DNA of 64,000 nucleotides from Streptomyces griseus (GTDB taxonomy: Bacteria; Actinomycetota; Actinomycetes; Nanopelagicales; Nanopelagicaceae): assembly GCA_945884695.1 (NCBI GenBank), contig CAMCYO010000005.1, positions 1 through 64,000 of the forward strand. The letters are read 5' to 3'. A program made the position numbers and the translations under genes. The first letter of the stretch is position 1, and every line of letters starts with the position of its first letter. A model generated the notes under the pieces. That model ran no database searches, was not told the DNA's origin, and worked only from the letters and a program-made list of their open reading frames with translations. Below are positions 33,936 through 40,892 of the stretch, piece after piece.

Positions 33936-35198
33936 TTACCGCCCATAGGTTGCCCGAATTTTTGTACTCTCTGAAAGCACGCGATCATAAATATCTATAG
34001 TTCCTCGCGCCGTTGAATCCCATCCAAAGTGAGTTGCATGCTCTAACGCGCCCATGGAAAGTAAGACTCGGCGCTGAGGTTCAGCCAATAAACGGGCTAA
34101 TACTGAAGACCAAGCGCGTGGATCGTGTCCATCAACTAATACGCCAGAAATTCCATCAGCAACAGCTGTCCGAAGGCCACCCACTGCTGTTGCAACTACG
34201 GGTGTTCCACAGGCTTGTGATTCAAGTGCAACTAATCCAAATGATTCGCTGTAACTTGGAACGCATACTAAATCTGCTGCTCGATACCAATCTGGTAAAT
34301 CTTTGCGAGAAATTGGTGGCAAGAAACGAACAACATCGCTTATGCCTAGCCACTTCACCATCTCTTTTAATTTCTCAACTTCTGCCGTGCCAGCACCAGA
34401 GACTCCCCCGATGACGAAAACTATAAGTTTGCTACGCAAGTGGGGTGAGTGAGCGAGCATCTCTGCCGTTGCGCGAATTAATAGATCGGGACCTTTATGT
34501 GGCTGTATACGACCAACAAAAGTGATGACATGAGCATCGGTTGGAATTTGTAAAAGTCCGCGTGCATGCGCTCTTCCTTGCCCAGGGGTAAAGGTATAGA
34601 GATCAACACCCGGTGTTACGACGTGAACTAAATCTGGGCACGCTGAATATAGAGAAACCAAACTTGCAGCTTCTGAATCTGTGTTGGCAATGAGTCCTTG
34701 GGCAGATTCAACAACTTCCATTTCACCTCGAACACGAGAACCTGGCTCAGGTGATTCGCCTTGGGCTAAGTTTAAATTCTTTACTTTAGCCATTGTGTGC
34801 ATGGTATGAACAAGTGGAATCCCTAATTTTTTGCTAGCGGGCATGCCAACTTCGCCAGAAATCCAATAGTGAGAATGAATAACGTCATAGGTAGTTGTTC
34901 CCTCCAGTGCGCTCGTAAATTGACGAGCAAGTCCTGGAATATATTGCGGCAACTCTTCTTTAGTTACTCCTTCAACGGGCCCGGCATCCAAATGTCTGAC
35001 AGTAACGCCAGGTGCCAGCTCCACTGTGTCTGGCAAATCGGCATGAGCTCTGCGAGTAAAGATATCAATGCTAACTCCCATGGCCGCCATGCGTTTTGCA
35101 CTCTCGGCAACATAGATATTCATGCCACCGGCATCGCCTGCACCTGGTTGATCCAGCGGTGAGGTGTGCACCATCAAGGTGGCGATATGGCCTTTCAT
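33936..35198 (-). CDS. mshA: D-inositol-3-phosphate glycosyltransferase (mycothiol step 1)
   Basis: A 420-residue GT4 glycosyltransferase that joins GlcNAc from UDP-GlcNAc to 1L-inositol-1-phosphate, opening mycothiol synthesis. The N-terminal Gln-Pro-Gly-Ala-Gly-Asp-Ala-Gly-Gly-Met-Asn loop is the MshA hallmark. The C-terminal nucleotide-sugar site has Val-Gly-Arg-Ile-Gln-Pro-His-Lys-Gly-Pro and Pro-Ser-Tyr-Ser-Glu-Ser-Phe-Gly-Leu-Val-Ala. With the mshD-like gene at 39.1 kb, it indicates the organism makes mycothiol. Confidence 0.96.
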   Translation of the reverse strand: MKGHIATLMVHTSPLDQPGAGDAGGMNIYVAESAKRMAAMGVSIDIFTRRAHADLPDTVELAPGVTVRHLDAGPVEGVTKEELPQYIPGLARQFTSALEGTTTYDVIHSHYWISGEVGMPASKKLGIPLVHTMHTMAKVKNLNLAQGESPEPGSRVRGEMEVVESAQGLIANTDSEAASLVSLYSACPDLVHVVTPGVDLYTFTPGQGRAHARGLLQIPTDAHVITFVGRIQPHKGPDLLIRATAEMLAHSPHLRSKLIVFVIGGVSGAGTAEVEKLKEMVKWLGISDVVRFLPPISRKDLPDWYRAADLVCVPSYSESFGLVALESQACGTPVVATAVGGLRTAVADGISGVLVDGHDPRAWSSVLARLLAEPQRRVLLSMGALEHATHFGWDSTARGTIDIYDRVLSESTKIRATYGR

Positions 35199-37897: not shown

Positions 37898-38308
37898 TCA
37901 ATGTAGCGCTTGTAGGGCTGTGAGAACCTGTGCCCGACTCGGAGCTCCTACTGCACGACCTACTTCGAGCCCTTGTGAGTCCAGAAATAGCGTGGTTGGA
38001 GTAGATCGAATATCGAGCTTTCTCACAAGCTCTAATCTCTCTTCTGCATCAATATCTATATGTGCAACACCCGGCATATCCGCAACAATGTTTTGGAGCA
38101 AACTCTTTGTTGCTCTGCATGGCGTGCAAAACACTGTAGAAAACTGCACCAGCGTCGCATTAGCGCCGAGTGGGGCTCCCAGTACTTCTTCGTTAAGTGA
38201 GCCATATTTATTTTGGCGAGGTTTAACCACCCCGCGAGTCCTCCGGTGCCAAATACCGTATGCAGTGGCGAGGGCAAGAATGAGGAGGATTGGAACGATT
38301 GATTTCAC
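37898..38308 (-). CDS. Membrane-anchored thioredoxin-like protein
   Basis: About 136 residues from GTG 38308. Residues ~3-20 form a hydrophobic anchor followed by His-Arg-Arg; then a thioredoxin fold with the redox pair C61-C64 in Phe-Cys-Thr-Pro-Cys-Arg and the cis-Pro in Ser-Thr-Pro-Thr-Thr. The frame is open further to 38404 but that would run into the divergent glnR gene, so the GTG at the membrane helix is preferred. It likely works outside the membrane on protein or small-molecule thiols. DUF4395 follows downstream. Confidence 0.85.
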   Translation of the reverse strand: MKSIVPILLILALATAYGIWHRRTRGVVKPRQNKYGSLNEEVLGAPLGANATLVQFSTVFCTPCRATKSLLQNIVADMPGVAHIDIDAEERLELVRKLDIRSTPTTLFLDSQGLEVGRAVGAPSRAQVLTALQALH

Positions 38309-38364
38309 GCGAGTAGTCTTGCCTATGTTCTGGGAATTGAAAACCACCGTGAAGGGAGTCAGGC

Positions 38365-39078
38365 ATGGCAGGTGTTTTGTTGTTAACAAACACTCATGGA
38401 GCAAGCGCTGAAGTACTTCCTGCTCTTGCTCTCTTGCAACATCACGTGAAAATTATGCCTGCAGAAGCAAGCGCTCTTGTTGATTTTCCTGAGACAGATA
38501 TTTTATTGATTGATGCTCGACGCGAACTACCTGCAGCTAAGAACCTTACGCGTTTACTGACAACCACTGGCATTGGTGCACCTGTCATTGTCATTACAAC
38601 AGAAGGTGGCCTATCTGCGCTCACCCAGGATTGGGGCGCTGATGATGTTATTTTGGATACAGCAGGACCTGCTGAAGTTGAAGCTCGAATTCGTTTAGCA
38701 ATAGGCGAGTACAACGCAATCCGAAATGCTGCTGATCCAACATCTGGTGAAATTCGCAGTGGCGATATTATCATTGATGAGAAGACCTACACAGCAAAGT
38801 TAAAAGGTCGATCACTGGACCTTACTTTCAAAGAATTTGAGCTTTTAAAATATTTAGCACAGCATCCTGGGCGTGTGTTTACTCGCGCCCAACTTTTGCA
38901 AGAGATTTGGGGTTATGACTACTTTGGTGGAACTCGAACGGTAGACGTACATATTCGTCGCCTGCGTGCGAAATTAGGCGCTGAGTTCGAATCAATCATT
39001 GGCACTGTTCGTAATGTTGGCTACCGCTTCACAGTTTCAAGTGGGAGTAAAGAAAGTCACGCCTCCGAGCGCGTATAA
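38365..39078 (+). CDS. glnR: GlnR-type nitrogen regulator (atypical OmpR-like)
   Basis: A 237-residue protein closely following Streptomyces GlnR: start Leu-Leu-Leu-Thr-Asn, receiver-like domain (1-120) with D50 in Leu-Leu-Ile-Asp-Ala-Arg-Arg-Glu-Leu but without the usual acidic pocket at the start, and winged-helix output (about 135-230) with [11 protein letters not shown] and [11 protein letters not shown]. GlnR activates nitrogen assimilation genes and is an orphan without a partner kinase. The mshD-like gene follows 2 bases later. Confidence 0.92.
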
Positions 39079-39080
39079 GA

Positions 39081-39554
39081 ATGCGCCATATATTAAAAAT
39101 CCATCGCTCTTTGCAGGATCCGATTCCAGAAAGCAGCCATAGTTTCACGATTGAAGCTTTCAATCCCACATTGCACAAACAGATTTGGTTAGATTTAAAC
39201 AATTTAATCTTTATTGGACATCCCGATCAAGGTAATTGGGCGATGGCGGACTTAGAAAACCGAATCGCAGAACCTTGGTTTGATGCAAAAGGTTTTTTTC
39301 TAGCCATTGAAAATTCAAAAATTATAGGCTTTTGTTGGACCAAGATTCACCATGAATTTGTAAACCAAGAACCAACAGGCGAACTCTATGTAGTGGGTGT
39401 TGACCCACAATTTACGGGCAAAGGCGTTGGAAAGGCAGTTTCTATTGCTGCAATGAACTATTTACTGAGCAAGGGAATAAAGAATGCGATGTTGTATGTA
39501 GATGCCGATAACGAAAAAGGCTTAGCCCTCTACTCGCACTTAGGCTTCAACTAA
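39081..39554 (+). CDS. mshD: Single-GNAT-domain MshD-like acetyltransferase (mycothiol synthase, shortened)
   Basis: A 157-residue GNAT protein. It aligns with only the C-terminal half of MshD: Phe-Ile-Gly-His-Pro-Asp-Gln-Gly, Ala-Glu-Pro-Trp-Phe-Asp-Ala-Lys-Gly-Phe, Gly-Phe-Cys-Trp-Thr-Lys, Gly-Glu-Leu-Tyr-Val-Val-Gly-Val-Asp-Pro and the acetyl-CoA loop Gly-Lys-Gly-Val-Gly-Lys. Normal MshD is about 300 residues with two GNAT domains; the N-terminal one is missing and the protein ends right after Leu-Gly-Phe-Asn, so the last strand is also lost. The C-terminal half is the active one in MshD, so activity is plausible. It overlaps the convergent aminotransferase. Confidence 0.82.
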   Translation: MRHILKIHRSLQDPIPESSHSFTIEAFNPTLHKQIWLDLNNLIFIGHPDQGNWAMADLENRIAEPWFDAKGFFLAIENSKIIGFCWTKIHHEFVNQEPTGELYVVGVDPQFTGKGVGKAVSIAAMNYLLSKGIKNAMLYVDADNEKGLALYSHLGFN

Positions 39555-40892
39555 CTCAGCACACATCTTTCTAAAAGCGCTTGTGTGAGCATCAACATCA
39601 GCCATGGTTGTCTCTGGTGACATCAACGCCATGTTATGAAATGGTGTAATCAAGAAACCATCATTGAGCATGCGTAGGTGAATGTATTGCTCCAGTTCAA
39701 AATCACCCGCATCTGAAGCCTCTTTACCTGTTCTTGGGGCTGTTGCTTGAAACAAATATTCACCGCGCGCGCCAAGCCGCGAGCAATACCAGGGCAAATT
39801 GAATTCTTTAATTGCCGAATCCACTCCGTCGCACCAAGCGTTTCCGAGTTTGACCATCTTTTCAAATCCGGAGGCGGTAAGCACGTGAGTGAGCGTTGCT
39901 CGCATTGCAGCAAGGCTCATCGAATTTCCAGCCAATGTAGAACCAATTCCACCCGTATCAATGATTTCCCGGGACGTTCTTTCTTTAATTCGCTTGGCAA
40001 CATCTTCTGTCATGCCAAATGTGCCAGTTGGAATTCCACCTGCTATCGCTTTGCCAATAGTGAGTATGTCTGGCTTCAATCCATAAAGTGCAGTCATACC
40101 GCCAGGGCCGACAGAGATTGTGTGCGTTTCATCAATGATCCAAATAGCGCCATATTTCTTTGCAAGGACGCCAACAGCTTCTAAGTAGCCTTGATCAGGT
40201 AAAACAATGCCAATGTTGGTCATTGCAGGTTCCATTAAAATTGCCGCAACATCTCCTTTTTTTAGGGCATCCTCCATTGCAACCAAATTATTGAACTCAA
40301 CGACTCGGGTGGTCTGATCTAAATCAACGGGTGCACCTAAATTTCCTTCGCGCTTAACTGTATTTCCTGCGCTATCTAGAGTGGCAAAAGTTTCATCAAC
40401 GCTTCCGTGATAACACTTATCAATAACAATTATTTTGGATTTGCCTGTAATCAAACGGCAGTAACGAATAGAGTGCCGATTGGCATCAGTTGCTGTGACA
40501 GTAAATTGCCAGAGTGGAAGTCCAAAGCGTTGAGCCAGTTCTTTCGAAACAATGACCGCATCCTGGGTTGGAAGCATCGACGTAAAGCCGTGCTTCATTT
40601 GCTCAGTAATTGCTGCAACAGTTGGCGCAGGAGAATGCCCGGTCATAGAACCTGTATCGCCTAAACAAAAATCAACATAAGTATGGCCATCAACGTCGGT
40701 AAATTTGGCACCCTTTGATGTTGCAACAAAGACTGGATATGCCCCTGGCCACTTGGCCATCCACGACATAGGAACACCACCTGGCATTACTTTCTTGGCC
40801 TCGGCAAAGAGCGCGCCACTCTTTGGATGCAACTCCAAAAAGCGCTTCTCTTCACGCTCGGAGAGTTCAGCTAAACGTTTGCGATTGATCAT
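39540..40892 (-). CDS. Class III PLP aminotransferase (glutamate-1-semialdehyde aminomutase-like)
   Basis: A 450-residue fold-type I PLP enzyme. The Schiff-base lysine is K281 in Leu-Thr-Ile-Gly-Lys-Ala-Ile-Ala-Gly-Gly, with D254 of Ile-Ile-Asp-Glu-Thr. The usual Ser/Thr-Glu-Ala cofactor loop reads Thr-Asp-Ala-Asn-Arg, which marks a side branch of the family rather than a true HemL. Substrate unknown; amino acid or omega-amine transamination is likely. An aldose epimerase gene is directly upstream on the same strand with no gap. Confidence 0.88.
   Translation of the reverse strand: MINRKRLAELSEREEKRFLELHPKSGALFAEAKKVMPGGVPMSWMAKWPGAYPVFVATSKGAKFTDVDGHTYVDFCLGDTGSMTGHSPAPTVAAITEQMKHGFTSMLPTQDAVIVSKELAQRFGLPLWQFTVTATDANRHSIRYCRLITGKSKIIVIDKCYHGSVDETFATLDSAGNTVKREGNLGAPVDLDQTTRVVEFNNLVAMEDALKKGDVAAILMEPAMTNIGIVLPDQGYLEAVGVLAKKYGAIWIIDETHTISVGPGGMTALYGLKPDILTIGKAIAGGIPTGTFGMTEDVAKRIKERTSREIIDTGGIGSTLAGNSMSLAAMRATLTHVLTASGFEKMVKLGNAWCDGVDSAIKEFNLPWYCSRLGARGEYLFQATAPRTGKEASDAGDFELEQYIHLRMLNDGFLITPFHNMALMSPETTMADVDAHTSAFRKMCAELVEA

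Follow-up and report, generated by a model that had tools for sequence, protein, structure and literature searches.

A Single-lobe MshD Orthologue, Probably a Working Mycothiol Synthase, in Freshwater Actinobacteria

The question raised by this locus is whether half of a mycothiol synthase (MshD), the enzyme that completes the antioxidant mycothiol pathway, can suffice. The MshD family is characterized by two fused GNAT domains and a length of ~300 residues, a feature absent from the 157-residue product of an open reading frame directly behind glnR in the window, i.e. the 64,000-nucleotide stretch of Nanopelagicaceae (acI) DNA analyzed here. A sequence-only reading of this stretch had proposed that the frame is an mshD orthologue cut down to its C-terminal half, encoding either a minimal but working enzyme or a final pathway step in decay. 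The available part of PMC10936415 treats it as an unclear point why one lobe of a tandem GNAT is retained although it is catalytically silent. A half-size MshD that has, in many freshwater actinobacteria, kept the active half and lost the silent one makes the purpose of the silent half directly addressable, and one family, or even one genus, in which the locus is occupied now by a one-lobe and now by a two-lobe allele constitutes a natural experiment on its role. No earlier account of a single-lobe MshD was found in the titles and abstract openings of the searched literature, outside which most subscription journals lie.

RESULTS

The Short mshD Gene and Its Locus

The frame runs from ATG to TAA, its product ends in LYSHLGFN, and glnR ends at position 39078; the length, the stop after Leu-Gly-Phe, and the two-base spacing behind glnR are all as first read. 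The genes and features of the locus are as follows (window coordinates).

33975..35186, minus strand: mshA, step one of mycothiol synthesis (coordinates of the match; the gene may extend slightly beyond them at either end); TIGR03449, 536.9 bits, cut-off 462.5
37898..38404, minus strand: thioredoxin-like gene, a conserved neighbor; PF00085, 36.6 bits, and synteny
38365..39078, plus strand: glnR, two bases upstream of mshD; PF21695 (GlnR_1st), 140.5 bits
39081..39554, plus strand: single-lobe mshD, 157 codons plus stop; TIGR03448, 148.7 bits, profile positions 128-286 of 294
39540..39554, plus strand: conserved end L-G-F-N-stop of mshD; LGF, N or S, and stop in all 43 short forms
39540..40892, minus strand: class-III aminotransferase gene, convergent with mshD; NF005453 (transaminase), 611.6 bits, over cut-off

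The hmmscan match to TIGR03448 (MshD) has an E value of 2.2e-43 and lies under the curated cut-off of 163.1 bits, as does the score of 152.2 bits that the same protein obtains in a genome-level profile search; 16 of the 43 short forms described below pass this cut-off, one of them only with neighboring matches summed. The protein aligns with residues 131-299 of Mycobacterium tuberculosis MshD (Rv0819) and exceeds the gathering score of PF00583 (GNAT; 58.5 bits against 20.7). Formally, this protein lacks two features of the TIGR03448 model, the two domains and a score over the cut-off, and is thereby set apart from ordinary MshD members.

No second MshD is present in the genome (31 contigs totaling 1.48 Mb, with a listed completeness of 100%), where the remaining TIGR03448 matches reach only 29.2 and 21.9 bits, and the possibility of a full-length mshD elsewhere thus falls away. 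The 29.2-bit match is a GNAT in a tsaE-tsaB-tsaD-type cluster, which we take to be RimI. A model of the N-lobe found nothing in this genome except a 20.7-bit match at the RimI gene, and a separate N-lobe gene is absent from all 43 short-form genomes (best match 27.1 bits); the same search recovered every one of 12 long-form controls, with E values of 1e-50 or lower.

The genes around short mshD encode GlnR, thioredoxin, DUF4395, Fur, a YgfZ-like protein, class-III aminotransferase, and aldose epimerase. Wherever glnR is on the fetched stretch, both mshD forms sit 3' of it on the same strand, usually with thioredoxin upstream and mostly with an aminotransferase or galM gene downstream; the exceptions are one short-form genome in which glnR and thioredoxin are missing beside mshD (G022) and two long-form genomes with no glnR on the fetched piece (G053 and G111). 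Short and long mshD are alternatives at one locus. The 15-base tail-to-tail overlap of mshD with the aminotransferase gene (39540-39554) raised the possibility that the downstream gene had invaded the mshD tail and caused the truncation, which we rejected as the same stop also occurs with different downstream sequence. Further departures from this layout were seen among the relatives. G034 (L279, L102) has lost the trx-glnR-mshD-aminotransferase block, so that galM lies immediately next to fur; at L087 (G145:C50) the start of short mshD and the end of glnR are disturbed and their matches touch, which points to a deletion or frame error at the junction.

Distribution in Nanopelagicaceae and Beyond

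When the search table was sorted by hand, the 151 Nanopelagicaceae genomes fell into 43 with short mshD, 42 with the long, two-lobe form, none with both, and 66 with neither, a class that takes in incomplete genomes and genomes with only weaker GNAT matches. The 83 high-quality genomes (completeness ≥90%, contamination ≤5%) comprise 36 short, 26 long, and 21 with neither; again none has both, against ~11.3 expected by a chance calculation that ignores relatedness. Four genera carry the short form: g1 (9 of 21 genomes), g7 (5 of 20), g15 (10 of 20), and g16 (19 of 19). In every one of the 43 the C terminus is LGF followed by N or S and the stop, and the position of the start codon is constant (M or V before R-[HTR]-I-L) except in G145, where the start region is disturbed. 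Because 43 of 151 genomes, single-contig chromosomes among them, share this length, start, and end, the short frame is not the product of an assembly gap, and the gene has, as the sequence-only reading had thought worth checking, relatives of the same length.

In a named collection that overlaps partly with these 43 genomes, the best 80 of 154 confirmed loci are all of the short type and end in LG[FY] plus one residue. The carriers include Ca. Planktophila lacus and strains IMCC25003, IMCC26103, and IMCC19121, which the available text of PMC5301498 describes as acI-A strains isolated by dilution, from a dominant freshwater group. At class level 144 of 158 genomes were matched, 14 of them Nanopelagicaceae, and among the 130 others just one protein is shorter than 270 residues (G310, 163 residues); its frame is cut by a contig end and carries a further tail. 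At phylum level 38 of 158 were matched, one being the genome studied here, and among the other 37 only that of G489 is short (209 residues), with part of the N-lobe and a tail. One long mshD (L271, G191:C20) has a 269-residue open frame with an apparent in-frame loss of most of the N-lobe and its DVLY tail kept; it is possibly an intermediate or an assembly artifact.

Anatomy and Fold Model

Three features within the gene bear on its structure and catalysis.

39081..39113, plus strand: codons 1-11 (MRHILKIHRSL), last β-strand of the lost N-lobe, now the N-terminal strand; aligns with Rv0819 131-141, strand E4-10 in the model, β5 frays if cut
39381..39383, plus strand: codon E101, equivalent to Rv0819 E234, the proposed general base; E in all 43 short and all 35 long forms
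39531..39533, plus strand: codon Y151, equivalent to Rv0819 Y294, the proposed general acid; Y in all 43 short and all 35 long forms

The AlphaFold2 model of the short protein (41 sequences) is a compact lobe with a pLDDT of 94.5 and a pTM of 0.89. By VIA-align it superposes on 1ozp, chain residues 130-300, with a Z of 22.6 and an r.m.s.d. of 1.4 over 153 residues, and on 2c27 with a Z of 18.8 and an r.m.s.d. of 1.2. The description of the protein as only the C-terminal half is right as far as the profile goes (128-286 of 294) and needs correction at both ends: residues 1-11 correspond to the strand that ends the N-lobe, and the C-terminal lobe lacks its own final strand. The available part of PMC4964394 counts the N-terminal domain of MshD as residues 1-140, and on that count it is the last strand of this domain that the short protein keeps. 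All 35 long forms carry a tail after LGF, mostly ending in D-x-x-Y plus a few residues, and the short forms have none.

When residues 12-157 were folded alone, β5 shrank from seven residues (135-141) to three, and the block pLDDT near the end fell from 96/93/96 to 86/85/84, i.e. by ~10, with the blocks shifted by one residue. The N-terminal strand most likely pairs with β5 in the model, since DSSP strands need partners and β5 frays when this one is cut. VipF, another tandem GNAT, has lobes that each send their last strand across to the other (PMC10936415, available part), and by analogy the two MshD lobes very probably exchange their last β-strands. With such a swap the short protein would look like a self-contained lobe with a borrowed strand, and the N-lobe and the C-terminal tail would have been lost together because each serves the other lobe.

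Catalytic Residues and Selection

The catalytic roles of Glu-234 and Tyr-294 in MshD are set out in section 2.17 of PMC4964394. Besides these two, positions 224 and 282 of Rv0819 are conserved in every short form (43) and in every long form read (35 of the 42), and position 179 is Asp in all 43 short forms and Glu in 28 or Asp in 7 of the 35 long ones. Positions 179, 224, and 282, together with residue 36 of the N-lobe, presumably contact the substrate. Counting against a working MshD is the loss from the short form of an acidic N-lobe residue, which we take to be a substrate ligand; it lies in an [SA]E[HDN] motif in 32 of 35 long forms and is Asp in the other three. Short genes were compared in 37 pairs whose proteins are 80-97% identical; dN/dS is 0.024-0.108 in the 27 pairs with finite dS, dS being saturated in the other 10, and the short-form alignment of 41 sequences has 43 invariant columns.

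The Mycothiol Pathway

MshA (538.0 bits), MshB (336.8 bits), and MshC (506.5 bits) are all over their cut-offs in the genome, so mshB and mshC are indeed found elsewhere in it. Across the 43 short-form genomes, with the tables read by eye, MshB and MshC have best E values ≤5.3e-62 in 43 and MshA in 42, the exception being G108 (87% complete, MshA best E 2.8e-34). In the genome studied here neither Mca nor mycothione reductase is found over cut-off, the best Mca match being the mshB gene itself, and a mycoredoxin-like protein scores 77 bits, under its cut-off of 89.5. On gene content, use of mycothiol in this genome is likely. MshD is not indispensable in the family, since 66 of 151 genomes have neither form though mshABC genes are widespread. 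The 21 high-quality genomes without mshD (G034, G009, and G047 among them) do have mshC and usually mshA and mshB; the final thiol of genomes with neither form may be the desacetyl form. We also note mshB near a 321-residue GNAT protein at G000:C8:27505-31300, a candidate CG3035-type N-acetylglutamate synthase, a pairing that coordinates suggest in several relatives.

Origin and Spread of the Short Form

In a tree with the trait columns left out, short and long forms are the two sides of one branch with a support of 99.4. A tree that also takes in outgroups and odd rows still has the short form as one change, but support drops to 0. Independent truncation inside g1 is rejected, as holding the short and long forms of this genus together gives a p-AU of 4e-73; the same constraint on g7 is only marginally rejected (p 0.046). 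The MshC tree of 64 genomes (33 short, 26 long, and 5 neither) requires seven changes for the short form, at least five of them forced by well-supported branches, and the glnR tree of 74 rows requires six, at least two of them forced. These trees would be explained best by a single origin and later exchange, or by a two-form ancestor and later loss, and exchange or differential loss is the most likely reading of the distribution against the MshC tree. Genome streamlining is not an obvious cause, since in g2, with genomes of 0.8-1.3 Mb, mshD is long wherever it occurs.

DISCUSSION

Position and descent indicate that the short protein is a single-lobe MshD orthologue: it occupies the locus of the long form, excludes it, and appears to share its ancestry, which upholds the original assignment. 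The locus, the mutual exclusion, the catalytic residues, purifying selection, and the presence of mshA, mshB, and mshC together suggest that it very probably works like MshD, in line with the minimal but working enzyme first envisaged, and from these features we infer, with good confidence, a working mycothiol synthase reduced to its catalytic lobe. The decay of the final step that was proposed alongside does carry some weight for relatives, since mshD of either form is missing from 21 of 83 high-quality genomes and G034 lacks the whole block, and one could regard the short protein as a remnant heading the same way. For the gene itself this is not supported and seems very improbable, given Glu-234 and Tyr-294 in 43 of 43, dN/dS of 0.02-0.11, the 43 invariant columns, a start and end identical across four genera, a compact and confident model, and the mshA, mshB, and mshC genes.

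A further objection concerns the N-domain, which according to the available part of PMC4964394 forms part of the substrate site of MshD and is therefore important. Tandem GNATs share a pocket between their lobes (PMC4964394 and PMC10936415, available parts), and the short lobe might work only as a partner, in a homodimer or with another GNAT, that rebuilds the two-lobe pocket. This reading overlaps with that of a working single-lobe synthase; we consider it unlikely, as the strand place that a dimer would use is occupied in the monomer model by the protein's own N-terminal strand, and no N-lobe homologue was found in the 43 genomes by a search that found all 12 long-form controls. A change of substrate, in which the protein would descend from an old relative of the catalytic lobe of MshD, act on a different amine or other acceptor, and have only its place in the mshD locus in common with MshD, would be consistent with the positions that separate short from long forms, where Q replaces H at 96 and N and D are fixed at 60 and 49 (Q96, N60, D49), with the well-supported split, and with the lack of Mca and mycothione reductase matches over cut-off. 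It is distinctly unlikely in view of the shared locus, the retained catalytic and proposed substrate residues, the mshABC genes, and the absence of the short form alongside the long one in all 85 genomes that have either.

The gene starts precisely at the strand that ends the N-lobe and stops ahead of the final strand of the C-lobe; a working single-lobe MshD would thus be one complete lobe closed by a borrowed, now N-terminal strand, in effect a permuted GNAT. Acetyl-CoA and Cys-GlcN-Ins would bind in this one lobe, where Glu-101 (Glu-234) could deprotonate the cysteinyl amine via a water and Tyr-151 (Tyr-294) could protonate the leaving CoA thiolate, and whatever the lost lobe contributes to the substrate pocket in the long form would be dispensable or replaced. 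A bolder picture, which we offer as tentative and on balance doubtful, would add to a natural permuted single-lobe GNAT, with the silent lobe removed cleanly at the strand-exchange boundary, an invariant LGF-N/S carboxylate that helps to hold Cys-GlcN-Ins, an allele that moved among acI genera replacing the long gene, and a final thiol that varies within acI between mycothiol and its desacetyl form.

The short protein shares with MshD (Rv0819; 1OZP, 2C27; TIGR03448) the C-lobe fold, Glu-234 and Tyr-294, the place behind glnR, and the mshA, mshB, and mshC genes in the genome, and differs from it in having 157 instead of ~300 residues, no N-lobe except its last strand, and no last strand of the C-lobe. 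Its model aligns from residue 1, the strand before the C-lobe included, with the tandem GNATs VipF, glucosamine N-acetyltransferase (5KF1), MAB_4324 (7Q3A), and 3TT2, all of which are two-lobed, unlike the short form. Single-domain GNATs such as AAC(6')-Iy (1S3Z) and Ard1 (2X7B) resemble it in having one GNAT lobe of ~150 residues, but there the alignment begins near model residue 20, and the N-terminal strand of the short form has no sequential counterpart. A second, diverged group of single-lobe proteins was also seen (L089-L095, in G086, G098, G092, G116, G041, G141, and G036), with FGF-...EL ends, open frames of 176-180 residues in six of seven, and ~30-36% identity to short MshD; these genes do not adjoin glnR, and five of the seven have a weak Fur-like match nearby.
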